Source: Loripinus fragilis (lineage: Eukaryota; Mollusca; Bivalvia; Lucinida; Lucinidae). From it: a DNA stretch of 64,000 nt. Of this stretch, positions 631 to 61,847 are shown in pieces. The notes under the pieces are model-generated. The model was not told the DNA's origin. It was given only the letters and a program-made list of their open reading frames with translations, and ran no database searches. Made by a program: the position numbers and the translations under genes. The stretch is taken from NCBI GenBank assembly GCA_964019695.1, contig OZ026525.1, positions 68,369,753 through 68,433,752 of the forward strand. Direction: 5' to 3'. Within the stretch, counting starts at the first letter, position 1; each line of letters begins with the position of its first letter.

Positions 631-2687
631 GCTATTAAGAATAAAAACAATCTTCTGGGGACAGAAATACATCATTTGAGCCGCGGCATGTGATTTAAAA
701 CAATTTGGTATGTGCGACCAGCAAAGGCTCAGACCAGCCTGCGCATACTTGCAGTGATCAGAGCCTTTGCTAATCCCTTGAATATTCTATGAGTGTTAAG
801 CTACCGGTGAACATCATTTGAAGCTTCTAAGCTTAACAGGAGGCTAAACAGGCTCTTCTGAGTCTACACTTTTCAAAATGCCACATTGTTGGAAATCACA
901 TGTCAGGGCTCATTTTATTGTAATTTTGACCAAAACCCCTTAAAATACGAAATGGGCAATTCCATACTTATGATTGCATCAATATGTATAGTATGGATCA
1001 ATCCATCTGAATGAAAAGGGTTAAGTAACTTCAGGATTAAGATAGACATGTTGATCTAGTTCAACCAAATAGAACTGCGTATATATGAGGCAGCACATGA
1101 AATTGTACCAAAATATGAGCCGCGACGCGCAGAAAGGGTCCTTAACGTTATTAATGACATTACGAGATATTAACGTCAGAAGCGACGACAAGTTTACGCC
1201 ATGTTTTAGTTGCCGATTATTGACGTCAGCGCTTTCTTTGATTTTCAAGTTTAACGTTTTCGGTCTCCTGATGCCTTCTATTTCTTACAGGGTGACCATA
1301 GTGGCATCACCAGCAGTTCAAATAAAACTATATACAGAATATAATAATACAAATGGCTTTGATTACCAGTTAAGTCAAAGCACTGAAAGCCGATGATTCG
1401 ATTTTCCGTTTACCGAGGCCTCCGCAAATACAAGTACGATATCTATAGAGCACACACGTTGCAAACCCTAAATTTTGGAGAAAGGTTCTCTGGCTGTTTC
1501 CCGCCGTTATCCACGCCCCGTCGTGTTTGAGAAATTAAAGCTGTGGGACAGTAGTAGTTAGAATTTTAAATGTCATCAACCACGCAGGAATATGAACGAC
1601 ACAAGTTATTTTTGCTCTAAGCTGTAATTAAAAATTAAGAAACTATATAAACAAAAAAAAAGATTAAAAAATATACGCTTTCAAACAACGCATAACTATT
1701 TAGTCTTCACATTTATTTTACAAATCAAACAATATAAATAATAACATCGTGTAAAATAATAAACATTTAGATATGTTTTCTTTCCAGACTGATTAATCTT
1801 ACAATTACATGTAATGAGCTTCTTTGGTCAAATTCAATTAGCTTTTCTTTTCTTTTTGTTTTCCTTTCTTACAAGGGAAATAACTCAATCCGAGAGTAAG
1901 TATTACTTTTTTTTAATTCCGTATCTTACTTTTCTTGTTTGTTTCTATAGGCGCGTTCCGTGCTGTTAAGTGTTGTTGTTGTTGTTGCAAAAATGTATGT
2001 ATTGTTTATGAATATTGCCTTAGTATCAAGTGAAGGCACGGGCCCTATATTACAAACTTTCATTTAGATTTTTGCAATGAAATCTTTTTAAACTTCATAT
2101 GAATCTTCGCTAGGCTTAAGGTTTTGCGCCTTTATGGTGTTTTAAGCTAGTTTCAATCATAAAAAGATGCAAAGTTTGGTGATAAAATGAAGAATAAACA
2201 AACTCTTTTCGGACCGAAGAAATGCGAAAAAAATGACGCCTCAATGTTTTTCCATGCAGGCTAACCAATTGCTCCAATACAAAGCCGACACGTTTGTTTT
2301 TGACCGACGCCTTTAAAAACAAACTATTACACAAAACTTTAGAGGCTACAATCATGAACATAGAACAAAATTTACGCAATAAACAGATTTACATTGTGTT
2401 ATAGTTATAATGCATTGCGTTTTTGTACCAAAATTTCAATACTAACTTAAGGAAAAGTAGCCTAAAATGTCAAATATAGACGACGCCACAAATGGATGTA
2501 TAATGCCACTCGAATGTAACCGATTGAGTGTGCATTGAAGGTATTCCAGTTGTTTTATCGAGGGTTGGAAAACGCGGGGAAACCATGCCCCAACCCTCTA
2601 GGTAATGCTGCCTATTTGAACAAATCATATTTTACATTTGTATGCAAAATATCGGCCCTGGGGTAAGCGAAAGAGTAAGCGCCCGGG

Positions 2688-3060
2688 CGGGGGGGGGGGG
2701 GGGGGGGGTGAATACTCTCATCTTTTCTTCATACGTAGACTCGGGCCCAGCATCTACCATTCACCCCCAAAAAATATCAGGAATTTCAAGCAACCACAAA
2801 AAATATTTGAATTTTTTAGCAACCCAAAAAATTATCCCCCATTCTGTGCCTTGACCTAAAGAAGAGACCCTAAAATGCATAGAAATGACCCCTAAATATA
2901 GACCAATTTTGTGATGACCTAAAAATATCCACAAAGTCTTCATACCCCAAAACATATTCATTTTTCTGAAAACCCAAAAAATTTTGAATTTCAAAATTTT
3001 GAACCCCCCAAAAAATGACCCGAGCCTACGTATATGTATGAAAACATCAGAGTACCCCCT
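2688..3060. mobile_element. TIR element with G-run
   Basis: An inner arm at about 2,710-2,748 (ATACTCTCATCTTTTCTTCA and on to GACTCGGG) is mirrored at about 3,017-3,058. A poly-G run flanks the left arm. No coding capacity is credible. Confidence 0.6.
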
Positions 3061-3159
3061 CTCCCTCTGGGGGTTAGTGCTCCTCAGCCCTGGGTCCCTC
3101 AACCGTCTCTAAATCTCGTATGGCCGTTTCTTTGTTGGGGATGGTGGTGGTGTTAAATA

Positions 3160-3262
3160 TGTCTCAGTAAACATATATGGTCACGTCGAGACAGTGTCAG
3201 TTCATCTTATTAGCGACCCCGGGATCTGAGGGACTCGCTACCGACTGCGCTACGAGAACCGG
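3160..3262 (-). repeat. tRNA-derived SINE fragment
   Basis: Resembles the head of the second SINE family: an ACCGACTGCGCTACGA segment like a reversed A box. Confidence 0.5.
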
Positions 3263-3503
3263 TTTATATGGCCGTTTCCCTTTTTAAAGTTTCATAATAA
3301 CATTAATAAAACGGAAAGTTTCAGTTTGTGACAAACTGAAAATACGTGTTCGCCAGCGTGAGACCAAACATGCAATCTTCACTGAAATCAAAATACTTGG
3401 CATTTTTTTCTCACTTGACTAAGATCCCCCCCCCCCCCCCCCCCCCCCCCCCGCGAAAAAATAAATCATAAAAAGGAAAAAAAGATTGTTTTTTAAATAT
3501 ATG

Positions 3504-3535
3504 TTGGATGTACTCAAAAGAACCGTCTCAATGAA
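3504..3535. mobile_element. MITE family A, half copy
   Basis: Only one arm (tactcaaaagaaccgtctca) survives. Confidence 0.6.
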
Positions 3536-4717
3536 TCCAGCCCTACAGTAATGAAAGTGGGCTATCTTAATTTGACAAACATGATTGTATACATGTGTAG
3601 TACGGGAGTACCACGCGTGCGTTGAGGGCATCTATTTATATTTCATTTAAAAATTATTCAAAGTCGGCAGATTGGTTTTTGCACTTTTATCAAAGTATAT
3701 TACTGTGATGAACGACGGCGTAGTGTAGTCCACCATCTATGACATAGGCCAATAGAGTGTGCAGATACGCACGCAAGAACGCTTTGAGTAATCCACGTCT
3801 GACCGTGTTAAAATAAAATGAGTAGTAATAATTCAGTTTGAAAGACGGCGTACTGTGGCCTACCACCTGTGGCATAGGCCTATAGAGCGCATATGCTAGG
3901 CCCAGTTTTCAGGAACCCACCTACGCTTTGAGAAATCCATGTCTGGCCGTGTTAAAATAGAGATCCCCCATACCCTCTCGGGAGTGCGTTCTCTATAAAA
4001 TGCTCCAGGAACGCGCCTGGAAATCATATATAAATATGGAAATGCAGACGCCGATCTCCATCTTCTTTATACTATTGAGGTTCTAGCGAGACTGCGTGAT
4101 TGTGCTAGCTCGTGTCAGACAGAGATCACTGATCGCATTTCGCGACTTTACACTTATTTCTATTCCAGTTGAGACCGTACGCCCGAGCCTTTGTTGCTAA
4201 GTACAATTTTCTATGGAGATATGGAAAATAACGCAGATATGTAAATGCATAGATGCGTGTGTGGGGCTGTCTGGTGTTTCATGCTGAAAGTACCTGATAG
4301 TTGCATAATGCTTTGGTCCACTAACCCACGCGCAAACCATGTCATAGCTCCATAAGGCTGACATTCTGTGCAACCCTGAATTCCTAGATACCTAAATCAG
4401 GATAAACTGTAACGGAATTAAAAAAAAAACAGAGATGAAAAAACAGGGCTGTCAAAGACCTGCGTGTTTCTTGTCAAGCCCAAAGGCCAATTACGTCCAC
4501 AAAATAGCATATCAAATTATTGACGTCGTCAAGTGACGTCATAAGTTTGTACCAATGTCTATTAGGGTATATAACTTTGAAGAGCTCTAGAAATGGTTAT
4601 AATAGGGGTACGGCCACCATATTTTCACAAGTTGCTAAGAATAAATAGTTCTTTTGAAATTGGATGAAAACTGAATTTCGAAAAAAAATACGTTAAGGAC
4701 CTTTCTGCGTGTCGCGG

Positions 4718-4790
4718 CTCATATGTTGTGGGCACTCAAAAGAACCGTCTCATTGAGTTGGCTCTTTTGAGCACTTCAAACATAGGTTTA
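4718..4790. mobile_element. MITE family A
   Basis: Both arms are present around an ATTGAG centre. Confidence 0.75.
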
Positions 4791-5378
4791 CACTGACGGA
4801 TTAAGAGATAATCACAAATTTATGATCAATTATTGAACTTGTCATAACTGGAATTGTGACTGAACTGGCTGAAAAACAGAAGTTAGTGTGACATGCAGGA
4901 CATGGTTTAGTTAAAATCAATAATTAATGAAGCTATAAGTTTAAATCAAACGACCCGCGAGTTACAATGCCCAAAGCAATAGTTATGAACACATGTCCTA
5001 TTTCATAATTCCTGACAAGTCTATAACTTTGAAACCTAGCATAACCTATATCATCTGCATGATTAGGCTTAAGTATATAAAACTTTTTTCATGCTGAGCA
5101 TGAAATTTATCCTGCTCATGTTACAATGCCTTACATTTATAAGCATGATATACGTATACAATATCTGAGTTTGAACTTAAGTCATTATTTTTCAGCATTT
5201 TAATTTTTATGAGAACTTCAAATTTCATGCTCAGTTGTGAATGAATACCTTTTATAACTTGCTGCCTGAATTCAGTCTGCTTGGCTAATCACCTTTGTAT
5301 TTTGTTTGGTTGCATTGATTGAATTACTTTTTGTGACAATTATTTCCCTCGAGTGCATGAAACTGTGAACCGGGATGG

Positions 5379-11600: not shown

Positions 11601-14600
11601 CTTTTTTCTGGCCATTTTTATGGGCAATCCTTAATCAAGACTGTCCGAGGTCCTTAATTATGTTATATATATTTCCGGTCAGGGTGGCATTTTGCTTACT
11701 ACTCCTACAACCTATCTAAATATAAGGTTATGAAATGATCAAGCACAGAAACGCTTACCTGCTGAACCTTCCAAACACTGTTGTAAGGTGTTGTTGAGAG
11801 TGATTATTGCTGCAGAACTCTGATTGCTCTTACCTGCTGAACCTTCCAAACACTGTTGTAAGGTGTGGTTGAGAGTGATTATTGCTGCAGAACTCTGATT
11901 GCTCTTACCTGCTGAACCTTCCAAACACTGCTGTAAGGTGTTGTTGAGAGTGATTATTGCTGCAGAACTCTGATTGCTCTTACCTGCTGAACCTTCCAAA
12001 CACTGCTGTAAGGTGTTGTTAAGTGTGATTATTGCTACAGAACTCTGATTGCTCTTACCTGCTGAACCTTCCAAACACTGCTGTAAGGTGTTGTTGAGAG
12101 TGATTATTGCTGCAGAACTCTGATTGCTACCCACACTTTGAGACTTTAATGTAGGAAGTGACTTGGATGCTACAAAAAATAAAGCATTCATCAGGCCAAA
12201 TACAAAAATAAGTGTGTTTGGGTAACAGGTCTGAAAATTTTAGGTTGGGTAGGCACACATATTTTTTTAACTATTTTTTTCTGAAAAAAAAAAATTATTC
12301 TATACATTTTGAAAGGCATAATTTCGCCTTTCAAAATGCATAAAATTATATATTTTTTAAACATGTTCCTCATGTCAAGTGAAAGACATTCGGAAAACTC
12401 AGGTGTCAAAAAGCACAAAACAGTCTTGGCAGAACACTATGCCATAAGTATCAAAATCTCATGAACTGGCCCATATCAGGGGACAAAAATTCTACTCGTC
12501 CGCTTGTTATTATGAGTGAAATCTAGAAAGGACGAGTAATTCTCAGGGCTCCAGATAAGAGCGGGTTAAGGGTATTTCAGCATTGATTTTTTTAATTCAG
12601 CATTGAAAATTAAATTGAAGGGTAAAAATACCCTTTGCGGTTTGAGGTTTCAGTGCTGATATTCAATTTATGTGGTGAAATCTTTTATTCTTAGTAAGAA
12701 AAAACTAATTAATATACACCAATTGTAAAAATCTTGGAAGTTTTCCTAAAAACGCAACATGTATTTGATACAAGCAACTTTTCTTAAAAATATGTTAAGC
12801 AAATATTGGGTCATTTTCCAAGGCTTCATTTTCTGCAATTTGATATTTTAAATATGGAGGAAAATACTCATTAAATTAAAAAGTAGATAGTGAAATACCC
12901 ATTGGTCCAAATCCTTATCTAGACCACTGAATTCTTCCCAAAGCACTCATCCTGTAGGACAAGTCCTTTGGAAAGAATTACTTGTGGAAGTCATATTACA
13001 CATTACTCCCTTATGTTCTTTATTGCATACGCTTTTAAAGGACAAGTGCATGTGTTTGCAGGACGAGTGCAATATTTAAATATTTTTGTCCCCTGTATAT
13101 CTTTGTCAAATTCAAAATGTTAAACAAATTTGTATAAAACAAGTGCATGTTCTTTAAATTCACTTTTCACATACGGTAAAAAACCTGTGTAAAACAGCCA
13201 CTCAAAAATAGACAAAACAAAGATCTTCAATTCTTTATGACAAATGGTAGCTTAATGAAGGTCGGAAGTATTGCAGAATGCTCCCCTTGGAGCATTCTGC
13301 AATACTTTCGACCTACATTAAGTGATACCAATTTTTGGTCTTTTTGAAGAGTGGCCGTTTTACACAGGTTTTACTGTACCATTCTCAAAACAAACTATTG
13401 AGAATATAGACAAATGCATGGGTGAAAGCTAAAAAATCAAACCTTAAAACTTACAGTACAGTAAAACCTGCGTAAAACGGCCACTCAAAAAAAAGCCAAA
13501 ACAAAGATCTTAACGCCAAATGGATGCTTAATAAAGGTCAAAAGTATTGCAGAATGCTCCTTGGTGCATTCTGCACTACTTTTGACCTGCATTAAGTGAG
13601 TGCTAATTGGTCTTGAAAACCAATTTTTGGTCTTTTTGAGAGTGGCTGTTTTACAAAGGTTTTACTGTACACCTACAAAATGGTGAAATGTCTTCTGAAA
13701 GGTAATCAGTAAATCAATCAGAAGCTTTTACAATCTGCCTAATTCACTATTTCGAAGCTGAATTTCTATGCCATGTCTTTAGTTAAGAGTGTGTAACGAA
13801 AAATAAGCTTCTTATTTCTCAACCAAAACATATGTTGTGGGTACTCAAAAGAACAGTCCCAATGAGACGGTTCTTTTGAGCGCCCAGAACATATGTTAAA
13901 ACTGATGGATAAGAAAACATTTACAATTTCACGCCCAAAAATTGTGCTTTATATCTAAACCTGTCTAAAAAATACTGAATGCAGTAACAAGGTTCATACA
14001 GGAAAGTTGTGTAAAATTCAAGGACTTCTAAAATACTTTCCCACTGTTTTCAAAGACTGAAAACTTATGAAAAATATTGATTTACACATTAATAAGATAT
14101 TTGTTTTAGAAAATTAGTATAAAATGGTGGAGTCTTGATTTGGTGCAGCATAAGCTGCACCAAATAAATGCACCACAATTTTATACTGATTTAGGTCTCC
14201 AAAAACAGTGTTGTATCCTCCTGTAAATGGTAAAATTCGAGGACTTTTCAAGGCCTTTGAGTCAGTGTTTTTCAAGTACTTTTCAAGGTAAATTTAATTT
14301 TCAAGGACTTTTCAAGACAGTCCTGTATATTTTAGTACTTTTCAAGCCTGTGAGAACCCTTAGGAATACTACTGAAAATTTTCATCCATGCAAATGGCTA
14401 AACACTGTAGACCTTGATCAGACTATTCATTAATCTAATCTGGATCTACAAAATTGTTATTCTGGCCATATTTTTCAAGTAGTTTTAAAAAACTGGAAAA
14501 ATATTTTGCAAGAAATTCATGTGATTTGACATCTTTTTCACGACTTCTTTTGATAACTCTGTCGGTGACTTATGCCATCTGCTGATAACCTTTCCAAACA

Positions 14601-51484: not shown

Positions 51485-51490
51485 TGTATT
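51485..51490. repeat. Target-site duplication TGTATT (left)
   Basis: Immediately precedes the AGTAGTATGT terminus; identical to 61,842-61,847. Confidence 0.9.
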
Positions 51491-51535
51491 AGTAGTATGT
51501 ATGGCACTTTAGCGCCAATGATGTCACGACGTCAG
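51491..51535. promoter_or_regulatory. Left terminal motif cluster
   Basis: The outermost bases contain TTTAGCGCCAAT followed by GATGTCAC, which resembles E2F, CCAAT and CRE sites in a row. The right end has the exact CRE TGACGTCA. Motif matches only. Confidence 0.45.
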
Positions 51536-51700
51536 ATCCAAGATGGCGGCCCCCACGACTTCCGGTCCAAGATGGCGGCCCCCACGACTTCCTGTCCAAG
51601 ATGGCGGCCCCCACGACTTCCGATCCAAGATGGCGGCCCCCACGACTTCCGATCCAAGATGGCGACCCCACGAAGTCAGATACGAGATGGCGGCCCCTGT
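51531..51700. repeat. Left subterminal 30-bp array with YY1-like sites
   Basis: Six units of about 30 bp, CCAAGATGGCGGCCCCCACG plus ACTTCCGGT. Four contain the exact AAGATGGCGGC, a core match to the YY1 consensus, and two are degenerate. Confidence 0.85.
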
Positions 51701-52012
51701 GACGCGTTCGGTTACACCTCGGAGGGTGAGTCAACGCCCTAGACCACGAGAAGGTAGCGTCACGTCCTAGAGCGCGGTGTCGTTCTTCTTCTCTATATAC
51801 AAGGGTGAGGGGCCTCTCATTTATTTTCGGGTGTTTTTTTTACTAAGTTCAGAACGAGATCCAGTCTTTAATGGTGTAGCGGGTCGCAGCGCTCGGTTTA
51901 TCCCGTTCCCCGGGTGGACCCTTTTTTTCAGCACGGTCCTTTCACGTCTTTTTCCACGTACTGATCGGCTTCGTAATTGGGTCGTAAAGGCTGAGAGGGA
52001 TATGATTGTCTA

Positions 52013-52191
52013 TCAACGTAGAACCGGCTCCTCGCCATGCATATGGCGTCGGGCTAACTTAGGAGCATATTGCGCAATTATTTGCTGTTCGTCCTTTAGT
52101 ATCTTAATGAATTCCAGTCCAAAGTTGCTGTCTTACGCCCTCTGTCCGTTATACTATCCTCTCCTTTTCGCTTAAGCTCCGATTTTGCCAT
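52013..52191 (-). pseudogene. Decayed continuation of the 76-aa ORF (left)
   Basis: Starts with MAKSELKRKGEDSITDRG in the same frame immediately after the TAA of the 76-aa ORF. It runs 31 codons and stops. A shifted frame then reads EFIKILKDEQQIIAQYAPK and ends at about 52,013. It looks like the rest of one longer protein. The identical state in both arms means it predates the inverted duplication or was homogenised. Confidence 0.5.
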
Positions 52192-52422
52192 TTATAAAGC
52201 TTGGGCTACTGGGGTGACCAGGTTCACTACGGGTTTTTCCTTTTGTCTCATTTCTTTCAACTCTCTGTATTTCCGTCCACTACCCACAATATAATGACCC
52301 TGACTGTTGCGTTCCGGGTAGCCATCTCTAACATCCAGCAAGTGCTGATACCATTTGTCGGGATCCGACACGTACGGAATCCACTTCTGCTGTTGGTAAT
52401 TGTAAACGAGTCTAGTGCCCAT
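52192..52422 (-). CDS. 76-aa conserved element protein (left copy)
   Basis: Starts MGTRLVYNYQQQKWIPYV, contains DKWYQHLLDVRDGYP and HYIVGSGRKYRELKEMRQK, and ends VVNLVTPVAQAL before a TAA directly followed by ATG. Tyr/Trp-rich and basic; family not named here. The left copy differs from the right by N/D changes. Last intact gene before the terminus, about 50 bp after the 50-aa ORF. Confidence 0.6.
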   Translation of the reverse strand: MGTRLVYNYQQQKWIPYVSDPDKWYQHLLDVRDGYPERNSQGHYIVGSGRKYRELKEMRQKEKPVVNLVTPVAQAL

Positions 52423-52472
52423 CTCTTTTGATCGATTTTCTCCTTCGTGCTCGAGTTATTCTTACGCTCTAT

Positions 52473-52625
52473 TCATACGAACGGGCGAGAGTCTAGTTCC
52501 TTATCCTCAAGCACCTCAATTAATCGCTCAGCAGCCTCTCTGGCTTCGCGTCGTAGTTGTCTACATCTCAACCGAAACAACAGTTCATCAAACAAAGCTA
52601 TACACATAAAAGTAATGGCGAACAT
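52473..52625 (-). CDS. 50-aa small protein (left copy)
   Basis: Too short for normal ORF cutoffs. A hydrophobic start, MFAITFMCIALFDELLF, is followed by an Arg/Glu-rich amphipathic helix (RQLRREAREAAERLIEVLED). It could be a small membrane-anchored or coiled-coil protein. It starts 36 bp after the PC4-type gene and is conserved between arms. Confidence 0.45.
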   Translation of the reverse strand: MFAITFMCIALFDELLFRLRCRQLRREAREAAERLIEVLEDKELDSRPFV

Positions 52626-52661
52626 ATTTACGCCTACTCAATACTTAATCCCTTTTCTTAG

Positions 52662-53147
52662 TTACCAGTTTTGATAGTCATTCGGGTTACACTCCGAACA
52701 CCGTAATGCGCCTAACTGATTCATGTGATCACTTTGCATGTAACAGGGTACGACCCCGTCTAGTTCGGGTAAGACCCTTCCAATTTCTGTTAAGAGTTCT
52801 TTGACGGCAATGTATTCTAGGGGTCTCAGGTATAATCCCTTTTTCGTAGGTATCACCTCTTCTTGCGGCTTCCAATACTGCCTTATATCCATACATGCGC
52901 TTCCCTCGGTGATGGTACAATAAACGTTCCCTCCAAGATGACTCTTATAGTTTTGTTTCTCTGTCCTCGCTTGATCCGCGTATTCTAAGTAATCCACCCA
53001 ATTCTTCCATCGCATCAAGGTTAAGCTGATACCTTTTTTGGTCGGTTTGTCATCTTTCCATTCTCTCAGGTCAACACACAGTTCACCTTTCCATTCTGTG
53101 ACCTCGATAAAGCGACCGTTTCCGAGACTGAATCTGCATCTAGACAT
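52662..53147 (-). CDS. Tandem PC4-like domain protein (left copy)
   Basis: 161 aa from the ATG at 53,147; an upstream in-frame ATG at 53,192 falls in the predicted 5' leader. Two similar modules, residues about 9-56 (GRFIEVTEWKGELCVDLREW ... TKKGISLTL) and about 72-120 (NVYCTITEGSACMDIRQYW ... TKKGLYLRP), each resemble the PC4/p15 single-stranded-DNA-binding fold with its KGISLT signature. PC4 acts as a dimer, so a tandem repeat may form the dimer in one chain. A likely role is in late transcription or ssDNA handling. The C-terminus has a CSEC motif. It is preceded by a CCAAT/TATA promoter. Confidence 0.65.
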   Translation of the reverse strand: MSRCRFSLGNGRFIEVTEWKGELCVDLREWKDDKPTKKGISLTLMRWKNWVDYLEYADQARTEKQNYKSHLGGNVYCTITEGSACMDIRQYWKPQEEVIPTKKGLYLRPLEYIAVKELLTEIGRVLPELDGVVPCYMQSDHMNQLGALRCSECNPNDYQNW

Positions 53148-53252
53148 GTTTACTGTTTGACTGTCAGAATAGATATGACTAGATTGCTGCAAAGCGCCTT
53201 ATATAGTGAGAGGTCTCTTCTGATTGGTCAATTATCCAGTCATCCGATTGGT
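53148..53252 (-). promoter_or_regulatory. CCAAT/TATA promoter of the PC4-type gene (left)
   Basis: Mirror of 60,080-60,184: two GACCAATC boxes, AGACCTCTCACTATATAAGG, then a TCTATTCTGACAGTCAAACA leader before the ATG. Confidence 0.65.
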
Positions 53253-53290
53253 CAACCTCCTCACTCCTGCTCCCTCCTCCTCATTCTCCT

Positions 53291-54598
53291 TCACGACGTA
53301 GTAGAGTCCTCTTGGTCTTTAGAGGCTTTCTCGGTTTCTATATTATGATTCGGCCATACGTCCATAAATAAATCTTTTCTGAGTTTGATGGCTTGTCTGA
53401 TAGAGTCCGCCTGATTCATATCGTGTTGGTTCTTGAACGTTTTAGCCGATTCCAGTATTCGCTGTTGAACAGGATCCTCTTGTAGCTCGTAATAATCTAT
53501 TAGAAATTGGGCGTAATCTCGTCTGAGTTTTTTGGGGAGAGAAGGCAAATCATCATTGGCTGCGAGATGAATAGCTTTATCCGAACTAAAACCTCGCTCT
53601 TCATAAGCATTCACTTTAGCTTTAAACTGCTCTACGTTCTCCTGCCTGATCGGATTTTGAAATCTCCTGTTCCAGATGTCGGGTTTAGAGCGCTCATCTC
53701 TTAGTTTTCTTCCTTTACCTGGAGGGCTTAAATCGCTAACCCTCCTATTCCATATATTCGGTTTATAACTTTCATCTCTTTCTTTATCCGGAGGGCTGAT
53801 AGAGCGTATATAATCTAGGGACTCCACACTGTCAGCATCTTCATCATCAGAAATATCTCTGTCATCAGGAGACTGTTGATCGACAAATATGTCAGTTTGT
53901 TGTCTGTCCTGTTCGGATGTACTCGATTTAAGATCTAGGACGAGGTAACCATGAGGTCTTGCCGTGGCATCTTCAAATTTCCTCATAAATGTGGCGCAAG
54001 TGGACGGATAAATTCTTCTTGCCAAGGTCGCAACTTGTTGTCTGTCGATCGGATTATTAAACAAGACCAAATATTGCGTATTTAAAGCGATATCCCTGCA
54101 AGCTCTACCTTGAGGAAATACGTTTTGAGTCAAATACACGATAGATATATTTCTGTGGTGACTGCCTTTCGTAAAAAGGTCGGCAATTCTCTGGTCACAC
54201 TTTGCTTCGGTCATCAGATCATCAAAAATGATTAGGTTCCTTTTTGAGGGATCGATAAACTGAGCATTATCCAGATAGTCTGGGATACCCCGTATAAATT
54301 CTATACACGGAATTCTCTTCTGAAGGTCTTCGTACAAGGGCTGCCATTGTCCAAAACACCATAAGAGTAGTTCCGGTGGCGGTTGTACTAACGTGGAAAG
54401 TAACAGTTTTCTAGTCCATTCCGTTTTCCCCGATCCACTGGGTCCAGTTACCATCATAGAGAATGGGTGTCTAAATGTCATTTTCTTCAATGGTTGTGAC
54501 TGGTCCGTATATTTCCCACTGCCATGGACATTGCATTCATGTCTTTGCAATGCATCACGCCTACTATAGGACTGGTTGCAGATCAAACACCTGATCAT
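53291..54598 (-). CDS. A32-like packaging ATPase with N-terminal zinc finger (left, intact)
   Basis: 435 aa. Residues 4-25 form a C2H2 finger (C4, C7, H20, H25). Residues 52-59 are Walker A GPSGSGKT, and 121-127 (NLIIFDD) are Walker B. LFTKGSHHRNISIVYLTQN (141-159) carries the sensor-like QN, and FPQGRACRDIALNTQYLVLF follows. This is the FtsK/HerA-A32 family that pumps genomes into capsids. The C-terminal 190 residues are basic and probably disordered, with duplicated KPNIWNRRV/KPDIWNRRF units. The start follows a (GGT)n tract directly. The right-arm copy is frameshifted. Confidence 0.85.
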   Translation of the reverse strand: MIRCLICNQSYSRRDALQRHECNVHGSGKYTDQSQPLKKMTFRHPFSMMVTGPSGSGKTEWTRKLLLSTLVQPPPELLLWCFGQWQPLYEDLQKRIPCIEFIRGIPDYLDNAQFIDPSKRNLIIFDDLMTEAKCDQRIADLFTKGSHHRNISIVYLTQNVFPQGRACRDIALNTQYLVLFNNPIDRQQVATLARRIYPSTCATFMRKFEDATARPHGYLVLDLKSSTSEQDRQQTDIFVDQQSPDDRDISDDEDADSVESLDYIRSISPPDKERDESYKPNIWNRRVSDLSPPGKGRKLRDERSKPDIWNRRFQNPIRQENVEQFKAKVNAYEERGFSSDKAIHLAANDDLPSLPKKLRRDYAQFLIDYYELQEDPVQQRILESAKTFKNQHDMNQADSIRQAIKLRKDLFMDVWPNHNIETEKASKDQEDSTTS

Positions 54599-54659
54599 TT
54601 TGTCTCAGTTAGTATTGCTTGTCTACCTTCATACGGGTGTCATCCTTCTTACGATCATT

Positions 54660-54895
54660 AGATCATTATTACCACCACCACCACCGACACCACCACCACC
54701 ACCGACACCAACCACCACCACCACCACAGACACAACCACAGACACCACCACCCACCACCACCACCACCACCTACACCACCACCACCCACCACCACCACCA
54801 CCACCGACACCACCACCAACCACCACCACCACCACCCACCACCACCACCCACCACCACCACCCACCACCATCCACCTCCATCACCACCACCACAT
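54660..54895. repeat. (CAC)n tract (left arm)
   Basis: Trinucleotide repeat with CGACAC interruptions, just upstream of the ATPase start. It differs in length from the right copy. Long ORFs reading poly-His/Pro or poly-Gly/Trp are artefacts. Confidence 0.95.
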
Positions 54896-54899
54896 GGTG

Positions 54900-55655
54900 G
54901 ACCATTGTGTCCTGACTGTACATTCACTACATCCTCACTGTATCCCACTGTACCCCAACTGAACCCTCACTGTGCCCCAATATATCCTCACTGTATCCTC
55001 ACTGTACCCACTGTACTCTCACTGTATCCTCCCTGTACCCTCACTGTATCCCACTGTACCCCAACTGAACCCTCACTGTGCCCCAATGTACCCTCACTGT
55101 ATCCTCACTGTACCCCACTGTACTCTCAGTGTATCCATAATGTATCCTCCCTGTATCCTCAATGTATCCTCCTTCTCTCCTCCTCCTCACCCTCTCCTCC
55201 TCCCTCCTAATCCCAATTTACCCCAACTGAACCCTCACTGTGCCCCAATGTACCCTCACTGTATCCTCAGTGTACCCCACTGTACTCTCACTGTATCCTC
55301 CCTGTACCCTCACTGTATCCCACTGTATCTCAACTGAACCCTCACTGTATCCTCACTGTGCCCCAATGTACCCTCACTGTATCCTCACTGTACCCCACTG
55401 TACTCTCACTGTATCACCACTGTATCCTCCCTGTACCCTCAATGTATCCTCCTTCCCTCCTCCTCCTCATCCTCTCCTCATCCCTCCTAATCCCACTGTA
55501 CCCCAACTGAACCCTCACTGTGCCCCAATGTACCCTCACTGTATCATCACTGTACCCCACTGTACTCTCACTGTATCCCCACTGTATACTTCCTGTACCC
55601 TCACTGTATCCTCCTTCCCCCCCCTACTCCTCACCCTCTCCTCCTCCCTCCTAGC
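54900..55655. repeat. CTGTACCCTCACTGTATCCT minisatellite (left arm)
   Basis: Irregular 10-15-bp units of ctgtaccccactgta type. Long ORFs across it are repeat artefacts. Confidence 0.93.
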
Positions 55656-55761
55656 TCCATTATGAATTTGAACTATCATGATCACTGTTTTTACGGCCAT
55701 TATACTCGTTGTAGAACGTTCTATCATCGTAGGTTCACCGGTAATTGTTGGTTGACCATGA

Positions 55762-55905
55762 TTATATAATGATTAAGCATAACAGTTTCGCTTTAAACAA
55801 CCAGTCGTCAGCATTTGCGCTATGTATAGTCTTAAGATGATGTACTATATTTAGCACATACTTTCTATCGCATATTGGACACTGGATCTTGTATCTATGA
55901 GGCAT
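55762..55905 (-). CDS. 47-aa C2H2 finger protein (left copy)
   Basis: Too short for the usual cutoff. MPHRYKIQCPICDRKYVLNI then VHHLKTIH forms one C2H2 finger (C9, C12, H23, H28), followed by a short hydrophobic tail. Identical in both arms. It may be a small regulatory or virion-core finger protein. It is related in layout to the finger fused to the ATPase. Confidence 0.55.
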   Translation of the reverse strand: MPHRYKIQCPICDRKYVLNIVHHLKTIHSANADDWLFKAKLLCLIII

Positions 55906-56121
55906 AGTTTTGATCTGTTTTTAAACACCATTTAAAACGAAACTTTATGTATACCAGCTTGCTGGGCAAGCCTTTCCTTTTAAATCGAAACTTTTATAAT
56001 ACAAACGCGAGCCTTACTTTTAAAACGACACTTTTATGTTTCAGCCGCGAAGATGAATCACGCTATGAAAAAAACGTGTGGTGTTCCAAATCACCAAACG
56101 TTTGAGCTACATCGTATCATT

Positions 56122-56218
56122 TAAACTTCAATTTGCTGTTCGATTGTCAGATTAGCTATGACTCGATTGCATGCGATGCGCAATATATAGCGAGAGGTCT
56201 TTTCTGATGGGTCAATTA
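56122..56218 (-). promoter_or_regulatory. Second copy of the promoter module (left)
   Basis: Mirror of 57,100-57,196: GACCCATCAGAAAAGACCTC then TCGCTATATATTGCGC. Confidence 0.6.
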
Positions 56219-56370
56219 AAAGTAATATCGTTATAAATGTATATCATAAGCCATACATCTCGCAATTCGACTCTAGACTATGAACAGTCGATACGTAAGT
56301 TGAATTTAGGGGTTAACTGTCTCATGTCCCTACCTGTACACGAACAGCGCAGACTCGCCCCTGCGCGAGT

Positions 56371-56947
56371 TAGGCTAGCTCTGTAATGCGATCATGAGTC
56401 GACTATTTAATGTCTACATACGATGATGTCATCCAAAATGGCTGCCGCCCATGCGCAATGAACACATTTAATTAAACAACATCTATATCCGTACTTTGTA
56501 CATTAGTTCTCAGGTAAATGTAGACGTCTAACCATGCGATCTAACAAAGGCGAACTCAGCAGACGAATGAATGAGAAGATATGAAATTGGTGTATTTATA
56601 TGCCCTAGACATTTCGAATGAAAAGGGCAAAATTGCCATCGCCTTTCCTAGTACATAACATAAAACGTTAGGTCCGATGGACAGGCTCATCTTGCAGACG
56701 TTAAATACCGCACTCTGATCAGTAAATTCGATGTTGAACAGCGAAGACCCAACGCAATGATACAGCAAAGTCGTGCGTATTGAAAAGGTGGGTTTTCCGT
56801 GGGCCTGTCTCAATTCATTCACCAATATAATCAATGCTGACCGGATGCCTTCACGCATCATAATTAATGATTTCCAAGTTCATTCAAAGTGTTGTGAAAT
56901 AGCTTATCGATTTTACAATTCAGGAGTAATGAATGAGTCAGCAGTTG
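56371..56947. other. Unique spacer of the palindrome
   Basis: 577 bp with no partner in either arm. It contains CCAAAATGGCTGCCGCC (YY1-like) and the 101-codon ORF at 56,556. Confidence 0.85.
56556..56861 (-). CDS. 101-aa unknown ORF in the spacer
   Basis: Starts MMREGIRSALIILVNELRQA and ends HSFVC. It has normal amino-acid mix and hydrophobic periodicity, unlike the repeat-derived ORFs. I do not recognise it. It could be the trimmed remnant of a longer gene cut when the palindrome formed. Confidence 0.35.
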   Translation of the reverse strand: MMREGIRSALIILVNELRQAHGKPTFSIRTTLLYHCVGSSLFNIEFTDQSAVFNVCKMSLSIGPNVLCYVLGKAMAILPFSFEMSRAYKYTNFISSHSFVC

Positions 56948-57099
56948 ACTCGCGCAGGGGCGAGTCTGCGCTGTTCGTGTACAGGTAGGTACATGAGACA
57001 GTTAACCCCTAAATTCAACTTACGTATCGACTGTTCATAGTCTAGAGTCGAATTGCGAGATGTATGGCTTATGATATACATTTATAACGATATTACTTT

Positions 57100-57196
57100 T
57101 AATTGACCCATCAGAAAAGACCTCTCGCTATATATTGCGCATCGCATGCAATCGAGTCATAGCTAATCTGACAATCGAACAGCAAATTGAAGTTTA
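57100..57196 (+). promoter_or_regulatory. Second copy of the promoter module (right)
   Basis: AATTGACCCATCAGAAAAGA, CCTCTCGCTATATATTGCGC and a TAATCTGACAATCGAACAGC leader align base for base with the promoter at 60,099-60,180. It drives the region before the 47-aa finger ORF (ATG 57,413). Confidence 0.65.
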
Positions 57197-57412
57197 AATG
57201 ATACGATGTAGCTCAAACGTTTGGTGATTTGGAACACCACACGTTTTTTTCATAGCGTGGTTCATCTTCGCGGCTGAAACATAAAAGTGTCGTTTTAAAA
57301 GTAAGGCTCGCGTTTGTATTATAAAAGTTTCGATTTAAAAGGAAAGGCTTGCCCAGCAAGCTGGTATACATAAAGTTTCGTTTTAAATGGTGTTTAAAAA
57401 CAGATCAAAACT

Positions 57413-57556
57413 ATGCCTCATAGATACAAGATCCAGTGTCCAATATGCGATAGAAAGTATGTGCTAAATATAGTACATCATCTTAAGACTATACATAGCG
57501 CAAATGCTGACGACTGGTTGTTTAAAGCGAAACTGTTATGCTTAATCATTATATAA
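57413..57556 (+). CDS. 47-aa C2H2 finger protein (right copy)
   Basis: Identical in translation to the left copy at 55,762-55,905; ATG at 57,413, TAA at 57,554-57,556. Its ATG lies about 280 bp after the TATA box, so another short exon or leader may exist. Confidence 0.55.
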   Translation: MPHRYKIQCPICDRKYVLNIVHHLKTIHSANADDWLFKAKLLCLIII

Positions 57557-57659
57557 TCATGGTCAACCAACAATTACCGGTGAACCTACGATGATAGAAC
57601 GTTCTACAACGAGTATAATGGCCGTAAAAACAGTGATCATGATAGTTCAAATTCATAAT

Positions 57660-58410
57660 GGAGCTAGGAGGGAGGAGGAGAGGGTGAGGAGTAGGGGGGG
57701 GGAAGGAGGATACAGTGAGGGTACAGGAAGTATACAGTGGGGATACAGTGAGAGTACAGTGGGGTACAGTGATGATACAGTGAGGGTACATTGGGGCACA
57801 GTGAGGGTTCAGTTGGGGTACAGTGGGATTAGGAGGGATGAGGAGAGGATGAGGAGGAGGAGGGAAGGAGGATACATTGAGGGTACAGGGAGGATACAGT
57901 GGTGATACAGTGAGAGTACAGTGGGGTACAGTGAGGATACAGTGAGGGTACATTGGGGCACAGTGAGGATACAGTGAGGGTTCAGTTGAGATACAGTGGG
58001 ATACAGTGAGGGTACAGGGAGGATACAGTGAGAGTACAGTGGGGTACACTGAGGATACAGTGAGGGTACATTGGGGCACAGTGAGGGTTCAGTTGGGGTA
58101 AATTGGGATTAGGAGGGAGGAGGAGAGGTTGATGAGGAGGAGAGAAGGAGGATACATTGAGGATACAGGGAGGATACATTAGGGATACAGTGAGAGTACA
58201 GTGGGGTACAGTGAGGATACTGTGAGGGTACATTGGGGCACAGTGAGGGTTCAGTTGGGGTACAGTGGGATACAGTGAGGGTACAGGGAGGATACAGTGA
58301 GAGTACAGTGGGTACAGTGAGGATACAGTGAGGATATATTGGGGCACAGTGAGGGTTCAGTTGGGGTACAGTGGGATACAGTGAGGATGTAGTGAATGTA
58401 CAGTCAGGAA
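57660..58410. repeat. Minisatellite (right arm)
   Basis: Mirror of 54,900-55,655: GGATACAGTGAGGGTACAG units. Confidence 0.93.
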
Positions 58411-58427
58411 ACAATGGTCCACCATGT

Positions 58428-58665
58428 GGTGGTGGTGGTGGAGGTGGATGGTGGTGGGTGGTGGTGGTGGGTGGTGGTGGTGGGTGGTGGTGGTGGTGGG
58501 TGGTGGTGGTGTCGGTGGTGGTGGTGGTGGTGGGTGGTGGTGGTGTAGGTGGTGGTGGTGGTGGTGGGTGGTGGTGTCTGTGGTGGTGTCTGTGGTGGTG
58601 GTGGTGGTGGTGGTGGTGGTTGGTGTCGGTGGTGGTGGTGGTGTCGGTGGTGGTGGTGGTAATAA
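58428..58665. repeat. (GTG)n tract (right arm)
   Basis: Mirror of the left (CAC)n tract; about a dozen bases longer. Confidence 0.95.
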
Positions 58666-58732
58666 TGATCTAATGATCGTAAGAAGGATGACACCCGTAT
58701 GAAGGTAGACAAGCAATACTAACTGAGACAAA

Positions 58733-60041
58733 ATGATCAGGTGTTTGATCTGCAACCAGTCCTATAGTAGGCGTGATGCATTGCAAAGACATGAACGCAA
58801 TGTCCATGGCAGTGGGAAATATACGGACCAGTCACAACCATTGAAGAAAATGACATTTAGACACCCATTCTCTATGATGGTAACTGGACCCAGTGGATCG
58901 GGGAAAACGGAATGGACTAGAAAACTGTTACTTTCCACGTTAGTACAACCGCCACCGGAACTAATCTTATGGTGTTTTGGACAATGGCAGCCCTTGTACG
59001 AAGACCTTCAGAAGAGAATTCCGTGTATAGAATTTATACGGGGTATCCCAGACTACCTGGATAATGCTCAGTTTATTGATCCCTCAAAAAGGAACGTAAT
59101 CATTTTTGATGATCTGATGACCGAAGCAAAGTGTGACCAGAGAATTGCCGACCTTTTTTACGAAAGGCAGTCACCACAGAAATATATCTATCGTGTATTT
59201 GACTCAAAACGTATTTCCTCAAGGTAGAGCTTGCAGGGATATCGCTTTAAATACGCAATATTTGGTCTTGTTTAATAATCCGATCGACAGACAACAAGTT
59301 GCGACCTTGGCAAGAAGAATTTATCCGTCCACTTGCGCCACATTTATGAGGAAATTTGAAGATGCCACAGCAAGACCTTATGGTTACCTCGTCCTAGATC
59401 TTAAATCGAGTACATCCGAACAGGACAGACTACAAACTGACATATTTGTCGATCAACAGTCTCCCGATGACAGAGATATTTCTGATGATGAAGATGCTGA
59501 CAGTGTGGAGTCCCTAGATTATATACGCTCTATCAGCCCTCCGGATAAAGAAAGAGATGAAAGTTATAAACCGAATATATGGAATAGGAGGGTTAGCGAT
59601 TTAAGCCCTCCAGGTAAAGGAAGAAAACTAAGAGATGAGCGCTCTAAACCCGACATCTGGAACAGGAGATTTCAAAATCCGATCAGGCAGGAGAACGTAG
59701 AGCAGTTTAAAGCTAAAGTGAATGCTTATGAAGAGCGAGGTTTTAGTTCGGATAAAGCTATTCATCTCGCAGCCAATGATGATTTGCCTTCTCTCCCCAA
59801 AAAACTCAGACGAGATTATGCCCAATTTCTAATAGATTATTACGAGCTACAAGAGGATCCTGTTCAACAGCGAATACTGGAATCGGCTAAAACGTTCAAG
59901 AACCAACACGATATGAATCAGGCGGACTCTATCAGACAAGCCATCAAACTCAGAAAAGATTTATTTATGGACGTATGGCCGAATCATAATATAGAAACCG
60001 AGAAAGCCTCTAAAGACCAAGAGGACTCTACTACGTCGTGA
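58733..60041 (+). pseudogene. Packaging ATPase, right copy, one-base frameshift
   Basis: Same gene as the left copy but 1,309 nt instead of 1,308. A run of five T is six T at about 59,153-59,159, just after Walker B, and shifts the frame at about residue 141. It truncates the product to 164 aa with an unrelated tail. The downstream frame is otherwise open to the natural stop. Walker A and Walker B remain in the short product. A few missense differences separate the arms (e.g. C22R, L122V). A homopolymer error in the assembly cannot be excluded. Confidence 0.8.
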
Positions 60042-60079
60042 AGGAGAATGAGGAGGAGGGAGCAGGAGTGAGGAGGTTG

Positions 60080-60184
60080 ACCAATCGGATGACTGGATAA
60101 TTGACCAATCAGAAGAGACCTCTCACTATATAAGGCGCTTTGCAGCATTCTAGTCATATCTATTCTGACAGTCAAACAGTAAAC
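60080..60184 (+). promoter_or_regulatory. CCAAT/TATA promoter of the PC4-type gene (right)
   Basis: CCAAT at 60,081-60,085 and 60,105-60,109, TATATAAG at 60,127-60,134, and the ATG at 60,185 about 50 bp further. It sits in the 143 bp between the ATPase stop and the PC4-type gene. Confidence 0.7.
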
Positions 60185-60670
60185 ATGTCTAGATGCAGAT
60201 TCAGTCTCGGAAACGGTCGCTTTATCGAGGTCACAGAATGGAAAGGTGAACTGTGTGTTGACCTGAGAGAATGGAAAGATGACAAACCGACCAAAAAAGG
60301 TATCAGCTTAACCTTGATGCGATGGAAGAATTGGGTGGATTACTTAGAATACGCGGATCAAGCGAGGACAGAGAAACAAAACTATAAGAGTCATCTTGGA
60401 GGGAACGTTTATTGTACCATCACCAAGGGAAGCGCATGTATGGATATAAGGCAGTATTGGAAGCCGCAAGAAGAGGTGATACCTACGAAAAAGGGATTAT
60501 ACCTGAGACCCCTAGAATACATTGCCTTCAAAGAACTCTTAACAGAAATTGGAAGGGTCTTACCCGAACTAGATGGGGTCGTACCCTGTTACATGCAAAG
60601 TGATCACATGAATCAGTTAGGCGCATTATGGTGTTCAGAGTGTAACCCGAATGACTATCAAAACTGGTAA
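60185..60670 (+). CDS. Tandem PC4-like domain protein (right copy)
   Basis: 161 aa, same as the left copy apart from E81K, V115F and an R-to-W change in the CSEC region. Fully open. The ATG at 60,185 follows the TATA box at normal leader distance; the upstream ATG at 60,140 is likely too close to the start site. Confidence 0.65.
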   Translation: MSRCRFSLGNGRFIEVTEWKGELCVDLREWKDDKPTKKGISLTLMRWKNWVDYLEYADQARTEKQNYKSHLGGNVYCTITKGSACMDIRQYWKPQEEVIPTKKGLYLRPLEYIAFKELLTEIGRVLPELDGVVPCYMQSDHMNQLGALWCSECNPNDYQNW

Positions 60671-60706
60671 CTAAGAAAAGGGATTAAGTATTGAGTAGGC
60701 GTAAAT

Positions 60707-60859
60707 ATGTTCGCCATTACTTTTATGTGTATAGCTTTGTTTGATGAACTGTTGTTTCGGTTGAGATGTAGACAACTACGACGCGAAGCCAGAGAGGCTG
60801 CTGAGCGATTAATTGAGGTGCTTGAGGATAAGGAACTAGACTCTCGCCCGTTCGTATGA
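60707..60859 (+). CDS. 50-aa small protein (right copy)
   Basis: Same translation as the left copy: a hydrophobic N-terminus then an amphipathic Arg/Glu helix. It lies 36 bp after the PC4-type stop and 50 bp before the 76-aa ORF. Confidence 0.45.
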   Translation: MFAITFMCIALFDELLFRLRCRQLRREAREAAERLIEVLEDKELDSRPFV

Positions 60860-60909
60860 ATAGAGCGTAAGAATAACTCGAGCACGAAGGAGAAAATCGA
60901 TCAAAAGAG

Positions 60910-61140
60910 ATGGGCACTAGACTCGTTTACGATTACCAACAGCAGAAGTGGATTCCGTACGTGTCGGATCCCGACAAATGGTATCAGCACTTGCTGGATG
61001 TTAGAGATGGCTACCCGGAACGCGACAGTCAGGGTCATTATATTGTGGGTAGTGGACGGAAATACAGAGAGTTGAAAGAAATGAGACAAAAGGAAAAACC
61101 CGTAGTGAACCTGGTCACCCCAGTAGCCCAAGCTTTATAA
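60910..61140 (+). CDS. 76-aa conserved element protein (right copy)
   Basis: As the left copy, with two Asn-to-Asp changes. The TAA at 61,138-61,140 is followed at once by an in-frame ATG. An AATAAA at 61,507-61,512 could end the transcripts of this arm. Confidence 0.6.
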   Translation: MGTRLVYDYQQQKWIPYVSDPDKWYQHLLDVRDGYPERDSQGHYIVGSGRKYRELKEMRQKEKPVVNLVTPVAQAL

Positions 61141-61319
61141 ATGGCAAAATCGGAGCTTAAGCGAAAAGGAGAGGATAGTATAACGGACAGAGGGCGTAAG
61201 ACAGCAACTTTGGACTGGAATTCATTAAGATACTAAAGGACGAACAGCAAATAATTGCGCAATATGCTCCTAAGTTAGCCCGACGCCATATGCATGGCGA
61301 GGAGCCGGTTCTACGTTGA
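61141..61319 (+). pseudogene. Decayed continuation of the 76-aa ORF (right)
   Basis: Same state as the left arm: 31 in-frame codons after the TAA, then a +1-type frame carrying EFIKILKDEQQIIAQYAPK to a stop at 61,317-61,319. Confidence 0.5.
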
Positions 61320-61636
61320 TAGACAATCATATCCCTCTCAGCCTTTACGACCCAATTACGAAGCCGATCAGTACGTGGAAAAAGGCGTGAAAGGACCATG
61401 CTGAAAAAAAGGGTCCACCCGAGGAACGGGATAAACCGAGCGCTGTGACCCACTACACCATTAAAGACTGGATCTCGTTCTGAACTTCGTAAAAAAAACA
61501 CCCGAAAATAAATGAGAGGCCCCTCACCCTTGTATATAGAGAAGAAGAACGACACCGCGCTCTAGGACGTGACGCTACCTTCTCGTGGTCTAGGGCGTTG
61601 ACTCACCCTCCGAGGTGTAACCAAACGCGTCACAGG

Positions 61637-61803
61637 GGCAGCCATCTCGTATCTGACTTCGTGGGGTCGCCATCTTGGATCGGAAGTCGTGGGGGCCGCC
61701 ATCTTGGATCGGAAGTCGTGGGGGCCGCCATCTTGGACCGGAAGTCGTGGGGGTCGCCATCTTGGACCGGAAGTCGTGGGGGCCGCCATCTTGGATCTGA
61801 CGT
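61637..61803. repeat. Right subterminal 30-bp array with YY1-like sites
   Basis: Mirror array; GCCGCCATCTT is exact in three units and degenerate in the other three. Confidence 0.85.
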
Positions 61804-61841
61804 CGTGACGTCATTGGCGCTAAAGTGCCACACATACTACT
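61797..61841. promoter_or_regulatory. Right terminal motif cluster
   Basis: Mirror of the left end: GTGACGTCATTGGCGCTAAA on the plus strand (CRE, inverted CCAAT and E2F-like elements overlapping). Confidence 0.45.
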
Positions 61842-61847
61842 TGTATT
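61842..61847. repeat. Target-site duplication TGTATT (right)
   Basis: Follows the ...ACATACTACT terminus directly. Confidence 0.9.

Follow-up and report, generated by a model that had tools for sequence, protein, structure and literature searches.

A multicopy palindromic element in the bivalve Loripinus fragilis shares its ends with a larger Polinton and likely uses its enzymes

We examined 64,000 nucleotides of the genome of the lucinid bivalve Loripinus fragilis (GenBank assembly GCA_964019695.1, contig OZ026525.1, positions 68,369,753 to 68,433,752 of the forward strand). This whole stretch, called the window here, sits on the contig that we label C14 in the 1.99-Gb assembly, and feature coordinates given without a contig name refer to it. 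At 51491..61841, the window holds a palindromic element with two long inverted arms, which is one member of an amplified, multicopy family and not a one-off. The family shares its ends, its 6-bp target-site duplication, one small gene, and parts of its center with a larger Polinton/Maverick of the same genome. It likely uses the enzymes of that element, and the palindrome is probably remade from one arm in each round; we assign this reading a probability of roughly 0.7. Since the palindrome shows no genes for copying or insertion and its ends are common to the bigger element, it is likely a satellite that borrows the machinery of that element.

Results

A family of inserted palindromes

Self-BLAST of the window and a divergence map placed the left arm at 51491..56370 (plus strand; 4,880 bp) and the right arm at 56948..61841 (minus strand; 4,894 bp). 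The arms were 98.88% identical over 4,894 columns, with 41 mismatches and 3 gap openings, and were separated by 577 bp, an architecture of two 4.9-kb inverted arms that a first-pass annotation of the window had already described. The symmetric AG...CT ends that it reported were also confirmed: the outer termini read AGTAGTATGTAT...ACACATACTACT, that is, AGTAGT...ACTACT, and TGTATT stands on both sides of the element (51485..51490 and 61842..61847) as a perfect target-site duplication. The flanks beyond the duplication were unlike each other, which marks the element as an inserted unit and not a missed-adapter or assembly mirror, since such a mirror would have inverted the flanks too. The G+C content of the element was 0.455, versus 0.381 and 0.322 in the flanks.

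A 910-bp query from the arm yielded 1,261 first-look candidates in the genome, 40 of which were scored. We read 19 of the 34 places listed for this query (the window included; 6 of the 19 were picked for a visible pair). Inverted paired arms were present at 16 of the 19 places, with a single arm only at the other 3; among the 13 places that had not been picked for a visible pair, 10 had both arms. The arm repeats measured about 4.9 to 5.3 kb and made up nearly the whole element. Fourteen copies, 7.7 to 11.1 kb long, were read at both ends; the 6-bp duplication was perfect in 13 of these and matched at five of six bases in the other, and the duplicated target sequences all differed from one another. 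AGTAGT began 31 of the 33 ends read. The 13 perfect duplications bear out the earlier description of an inverted-dimer, nonautonomous element of Polinton type that integrates as a unit, while the likeness to a rare defective genome that came with that description does not fit an amplified family.

The arms carry a gene of the PC4 family (see below), and we searched the genome for this family as well, scoring 150 of 1,186 candidates. Among the 150 scored matches, there were 50 neighbor pairs within 20 kb, 49 of them head-out and 1 tandem. The spacing of the head-out pairs was 3.1 to 8.5 kb in 44 cases and 12.7 to 16.6 kb in 5. The 50 matches without a neighbor within 20 kb were left out of the pairs.

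Short and long elements with the same ends

A 24-base end pattern was searched for exact matches, with the reversed pattern as a control. This pattern admits some end variants only, and copies like the window's own fall outside it. It gave 266 exact matches (135 forward and 131 reverse) versus 0 for the reversed control, which answers the suggestion of the first-pass annotation to look for other copies with the same ends. From 100 listed end-pattern places, we obtained 39 head-out pairs in two size classes, 29 short (6.5 to 11.0 kb) and 10 long (14.8 to 23.5 kb); 22 of the 100 had no partner within 30 kb. The same end variants were present in both size classes. Among the listed matches of a genome search for the polymerase family PF03175 (68 of 872 candidates scored), polymerase was found in 7 of the 10 long pairs and in none of the 29 short pairs. 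PC4, again among the listed matches, was found in 18 of the 29 short pairs (in both arms in 12), at 1.3 to 1.7 kb from the ends. No listed PC4 match fell in the 7 long pairs with polymerase, and one of the other three long pairs had PC4.

We read one long copy of 16.4 kb (C4:1115049-1131456) outside 1119401-1124499, the part that holds its polymerase matches. From the left end, it carries the shared terminal part (88%), an A32-like ATPase, a TBP gene (PF00352, 3.8e-25; C4:1116858-1117451), an rve integrase (1.6e-11), and then the polymerase. Its right end holds a relative of a 76-amino-acid (aa) open reading frame (ORF) of the palindrome (79%), ORFs that we take to be capsid-like from their resemblance to capsid proteins (one has an in-frame stop), and the shared terminal part. 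Pfam gave no convincing match for the capsid-like ORFs, and none of their PDB matches had an E value below 0.2.

Matches between the palindrome arm and this long copy covered arm positions 1-462 (88 to 89%), 463-533 (98.6%), 758-941 (95.7%), and 4473-4546 (89%), and the center of the palindrome (the S segment and loop described below) matched it in part, at 89 to 97%. The first of these pieces is the outer part, with its (AGT)2 start, that also forms part of a full-length Polinton's terminal repeats (51491..51952, plus strand; mirror at 61380..61841, minus strand), to which arm positions 68-462 and 97-462 matched at 88 to 89%. The second is a 71-bp stretch (51953..52023, minus strand) that corresponds to the tail of a capsid-like ORF (98.6% identity), and the capsid-like ORFs of the long copy match the palindrome arm over this tail only. 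The third falls in the 76-aa ORF, 184 bp of which is 95.7% identical in the full-length Polinton. Across Polinton copies, pieces of the arm and center recurred at 88 to 99%. A second polymerase element, on C14, has the terminal part, the 4473-4546 piece, a loop piece, and S in line and then the polymerase, and it is 98.5% identical to the C4 copy over the 1,694 bp between S and the polymerase.

The ATPase of the C4 long copy is only 36% identical to that of the palindrome, and neither PC4 nor the finger-ATPase of the palindrome had a match in the parts read of this copy. The first-pass annotation had held that the packaging and regulatory genes were kept when a Polinton lost its core; the differing ATPase, the lack of these matches, and the 0 of 7 polymerase-bearing end pairs with a listed PC4 match all speak against this. 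It had also suggested alignment to full-length Polintons as a check; the palindrome aligned over the ends, the 76-aa ORF, and the center pieces, and not over PC4 and the finger-ATPase in the parts read. The palindrome is thus a mosaic in which Polinton ends and center are combined with a PC4-ATPase block not seen in these Polintons, and the PC4-ATPase genes were more likely gained than retained from the co-resident Polinton.

At C14:41491300-41496300, in an element with a 1438-aa polymerase, the terminal repeat almost directly joins the center region and the capsid-side genes of the C4 copy are missing; this element is perhaps another deleted class. In one copy of a 1585-aa polymerase family, the start is closely preceded by an AGAGAG stretch and not by AGTAGT. 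A 416-bp palindrome (about 90% self-complementary; C4:74052911-74053326) lies upstream of a 1585-aa polymerase element with a candidate end of the AGAGAG type. For four further polymerase families, in one copy each, no clear end was found near the start.

Arms of one copy resemble each other

We compared arms in three segments (13, 12, and 11 pairs), leaving out arms that covered less than 93% of the segment, unpaired arms, and columns gapped in any paired arm. Of the variants private to a copy, 37, 41, and 15 in the three segments stood in both arms, and 134, 129, and 28 stood in a single arm. In total, both-arm instances numbered 123, 66, and 34, above the maxima (58, 36, and 20) of 200 shuffles of the partners, which had means of 28, 11, and 6. 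Deletions were also present in both arms, at arm positions 1226-1684 in copy C20 and 1294-1357 in copy C3. At the ends, the same variant stood on both sides in 37 of the 39 end-pattern pairs, versus 16% expected by chance, and the terminal 30 bases of the two ends were identical in 10 of 14 copies, with one difference in the other 4. Arm-to-arm differences ranged from 0.3 to 2.8% and showed no significant clumping in 12 of 13 copies (two segments), with one copy at a P value of 0.039. The old both-arm variants and the identity of the end variants fit a process in which both arms are renewed from one during replication and then decay independently.

The center of the palindrome

The 577 bp between the arms of the window copy consist of a segment, S, that is single in this copy (56371..56821, plus strand) and of a central loop with about 14 bp possibly left over from a lost second S (56822..56947, plus strand). 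The first-pass annotation had called this spacer unique; its first ∼450 bp, however, flank the center on both sides in 9 of the 15 other two-armed copies read. In the remaining six, S was present in part on one side (one copy), on one side only (four copies), or absent (one copy). Where S lay on both sides, the loop measured 69 to 110 bp; inspection by eye in 7 copies suggested homologous loops, and C398 has a different loop. In the center analysis, 14 loci were examined, 3 of which (L013, L016, and L025) had no self-inverted row. The window copy is best read as a center-deleted member of a more symmetric family, one that appears to have lost the second S side.

Two candidate readings of the center were set aside. 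An ORF in the spacer was considered as a capsid remnant, and its 16 protein relatives turned out to be short and in mixed frames. Several of these relatives (P0124, P0127, and P0128) span the segment and continue into its reverse complement, which pointed to a symmetric center that was later seen in the DNA. The orientation of the loop was considered as a flip-flop signal and dropped because insertion orientation is arbitrary for a palindrome.

Genes and repeats in the arms

Each arm has three supported genes, for an A32-type ATPase, a tandem PC4 protein, and the 76-aa ORF, and each gene is transcribed toward the nearer end. The five-ORF set that the first-pass annotation saw duplicated head-out is thus duplicated in that way, with the count reduced to three genes and the ATPase frame broken in the right arm. 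In the left arm, the ATPase gene (53291..54598, minus strand) is an open frame of 435 aa with an N-terminal C2H2 finger followed by the packaging ATPase; in the right arm (58733..60041, plus strand), a one-base difference breaks the frame into two overlapping ORFs of 164 and 302 aa. The Pfam match to Pox_A32 had an E value of 6.7e-7. The predicted structure (mean pLDDT, 70.7; pTM, 0.47) had its best matches mostly among viral packaging ATPases (viral A32-like proteins, adenovirus IVa2, and an adintovirus FtsK-like protein), and its matches among solved structures were weak ones to P-loop ATPases. Homologues of the ATPase are numerous, with 1,802 members in one 90% cluster. The protein database also holds ATPases that lie in pairs on one contig. 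Of these, P0003 and P0011 have a private deletion in common, and P0004 and P0019 do not resemble partners; as a sign of paired arms, such pairs are only suggestive.

The tandem PC4 protein of 176 aa, with two PC4 stretches (PF02229, E value of 1.6e-18), is encoded at 52662..53192 (minus strand) and, again as an open frame, at 60140..60670 (plus strand); its relatives are numerous and include annotated Ruditapes and Mactra proteins. In host cells, PC4 serves as a coactivator together with TBP/TFIID. Transcription factors are split between the two kinds of element, with TBP on the full-length Polinton and the tandem PC4 on the palindrome, its presumed satellite. The 76-aa ORF lies at 52192..52422 (minus strand) and 60910..61140 (plus strand); it is supported by its match in the full-length Polinton, and its predicted structure was of low confidence (54.8) and was not used.

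The remaining ORFs of the window copy that were tested had no convincing Pfam match or fell within tandem repeats. A protein-primed family B polymerase was not found among the window-copy ORFs or the eight ORFs scanned with Pfam, and a retroviral-type integrase was not found among these eight. Major or minor capsid proteins and a protease were not found in the window copy, where the ATPase is the sole ORF of more than 302 aa; Pfam alone is insufficient as a capsid test here, as it does not recognize the capsid-like ORF type of the long copy. Relatives of the element were not found in scans of IMG/VR or in phage records. Genome contigs of GTDB gave two relatives, one of them within a Bathymodiolus-symbiont bin and carrying a related finger-ATPase (positions 2598-5041 of the contig) beside a region that we presume to be polymerase exonuclease-like. 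This contig is probably mussel DNA in a bacterial bin.

Near the left end lie six 29-bp tandem repeats (CACGACTTCCGATCCAAGATGGCGGCCCC; 51525..51697, plus strand), mirrored at 61635..61807 (minus strand). Simple and minisatellite repeats without a supported gene occupy 54671..55653, with their mirror at 57665..58660. Elsewhere in the window, positions 11739-12239 hold a 166-codon open frame made mostly of tandem repeats of 25 residues that are nearly identical to each other (75-bp period, 97% identity).

Selection and decay of the frames

In the analysis of the ATPase, PC4, and 76-aa frames, an arm was left out if it covered less than 90% of the gene, and a column was left out if more than 4 bases were missing. 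The ratio of silent to changing variants was 42:53 for variants in both arms or shared among copies and 52:166 for one-arm variants (Fisher P = 0.0005), and the one-arm variants lay near the neutral expectation (27% silent). Private both-arm variants taken alone were also enriched for silent changes (P = 0.011), and tests by gene gave P values of 0.055, 0.031, and 0.017. Proteins seem to have been maintained in the replicating lineage; single insertions decay. By a rough test, the frame was intact in 13 of 30 arms for the ATPase, 18 of 30 for PC4, and 33 of 34 for the 76-aa ORF.

Discussion

If the palindrome depends on the larger Polinton, its cycle might run as follows. The protein-primed polymerase of the helper would start at the shared ends, and the displaced strand would fold to a hairpin of ∼5.3 kb with a short loop. 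Copying or repair of the hairpin to a perfect palindrome would make both arms alike, and the integrase of the helper would insert the 10- to 11-kb product with a 6-bp duplication. The A32-type ATPase of the element may select the element's own DNA for packaging in helper capsids, and its PC4 may act in transcription beside the TBP that the helper encodes. In the window copy, ∼450 bp would then have been lost on one side of the center, leaving the 577-bp spacer. We infer helper dependence and packaging from sequence comparison. The fullest version of this model is a Polinton satellite virus with a hairpin genome, an arm of ∼5.3 kb and a short loop that becomes a 10- to 11-kb palindrome before integration, with arms renewed from one each cycle and with its own packaging motor and PC4 taking over the capsids of the helper; we regard this version as possible and put it forward tentatively.

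Other explanations account for parts of these data. The arms could be alike through gene conversion after chromosomal insertion instead of being remade during replication. Long inverted repeats are known substrates for conversion, the six private stop codons found in both arms are consistent with it, and so is the clumping of the window copy's differences over the whole arm (P = 0.007); yet 12 of the 13 copies had no significant clumping in the two arm segments, and the ends are alike up to the terminal bases, with 10 of 14 identical over 30 bases, which leaves conversion as the sole cause doubtful. Alternatively, the palindrome might be a simple internal-deletion derivative of a Polinton with terminal repeats hugely expanded to 5 kb, mobilized in trans and with no satellite lifestyle. 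The outer ∼460 bp are indeed terminal repeats of the co-resident Polinton, asymmetric losses at the center recur, and one 15.8-kb end pair carries PC4 in both arms. However, what the C4 long copy has in common with the palindrome is limited to those outer ∼460 bp and some scattered pieces, its ATPase is a different one, PC4 among the listed matches was in 0 of 7 polymerase-bearing pairs, and the frames carry a signal of selection, so that we consider such a derivative unlikely.

We think it very unlikely that the element is an autonomous minivirus copied and inserted by host enzymes without a Polinton helper. It does have conserved genes of its own, but the same end variants occur on polymerase-bearing elements of the same genome, and 6-bp duplications and (AGT)2 ends are Maverick hallmarks in the available text of a Maverick study (PMC8097293). 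A chromosomal inverted duplication at one locus, or an artefact of assembly, for which palindromes are a known hazard, is hardly conceivable: the flanks are unlike, and the 13 copies at other loci, 12 of them with a perfect duplication of their own, refute it.

Several observations weigh against a helper-dependent palindrome renewed from one arm. The long pair at C5:29088980-29104774 (15.8 kb) has no listed polymerase match and carries PC4 in both arms, with scores among the strongest; its middle 1.4 kb matched none of the sequences compared here, and this pair could be either a palindrome carrying an insert or a bigger element whose repeats are long. A spacing of 12.7 to 16.6 kb was also found for four other head-out PC4 pairs. 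The absences of polymerase and PC4 from the respective classes are weaker than they look, as 68 of 872 and 150 of 1,186 candidates were scored, and the content of the helper comes from a single long copy that was read from its two ends up to the polymerase part. The case for helper dependence is built from shared ends and missing genes. With respect to renewal, 2 of the 39 pairs had unlike ends, and the partner was the nearest or tied-nearest relative for only 20 of 26, 16 of 24, and 17 of 22 arms in the three segments. The differences of the window copy were clumped over its whole arm (dispersion, 2.0; P = 0.007), which fits some conversion, and conversion between arms may act besides renewal. 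Finally, six stop codons private to single copies lie in both arms, so either broken copies can move or arms convert; together with the rough intactness counts, these stops would speak against a strict need for the proteins in cis.

The two unlike-end pairs, both short (C3:2799722-2809400 and C3:118370223-118381058), are possible recombinants or elements made without arm renewal.

We found no report of a palindromic or satellite Polinton in the open-access literature, our search of which did not extend to subscription papers or Repbase. In the accessible parts of their texts, a bivalve transposon survey mentions Mavericks only generally, and neither PC4 nor mollusc turned up when these terms were searched in a survey of double-jelly-roll viruses. 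Repeats from 100 bp up to 8 kb were screened for in a survey of Polinton-like viruses in cryptophytes, whose main text does not use the word "palindrome" (PMC12220804). If the satellite reading is true, this would be the first satellite reported on a Polinton, as far as the open-access literature shows. It has long been asked whether Polintons really produce particles and move between hosts in the manner of viruses. A satellite lineage in which the packaging ATPase shows a signal of selection and polymerase, integrase, and capsid genes are lacking is what would be expected if its helpers package DNA, and it would thus be an indirect sign of Polinton virions. The palindrome may also be a natural record of how protein-primed linear DNA can fold back, equalize its arms, and persist as a lineage.

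Among known systems, Polintons/Mavericks are the closest. According to the available text of PMC8097293, Mavericks have (AGT)2//(ACT)2 or (AG)3 ends, a 6-bp target duplication, and an A32/FtsK-type packaging ATPase, those of vertebrates measure 12.7 to 24.6 kb with terminal repeats of 46 to 1,447 bp, and the end repeats are held to permit the jumping-back step of protein-primed copying. The palindrome has the same (AGT)2//(ACT)2 ends and 6-bp duplication and an A32/FtsK-type packaging ATPase. Unlike these elements, it is nearly all repeat, with arms of about 4.9 to 5.3 kb compared with terminal repeats of tens to about 1,450 bp in the Mavericks of that text, and polymerase, integrase, and capsid genes were not found in the window copy. 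Its ends are those of polymerase-bearing elements in the same genome, as in nonautonomous Polinton derivatives.

Like Polinton-like viruses and virophages, the palindrome is a small double-stranded DNA element that has its own packaging ATPase and likely depends on a bigger virus-like element. Virophages encode their own capsid and parasitize giant viruses, whereas no capsid gene is seen in the palindrome, for which a Polinton is the presumed helper. The phage satellites P4 and PICI, which are prokaryotic and nonpalindromic, keep packaging or regulatory genes and borrow the structure of a helper; the logic is similar, and the genes are unrelated. Foldback elements (FB/Galileo) resemble the palindrome in the great length of their inverted repeats and in having tandem repeats close to the ends, but they belong to another transposase family, make longer target duplications, and have no viral genes. 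The inverted dimers of adenoviruses are transient, defective palindromic genomes that arise from strand displacement and fold-back. The palindrome of L. fragilis differs from them: it forms a lineage that has been amplified in the chromosomes, and its genes show a signal of selection.

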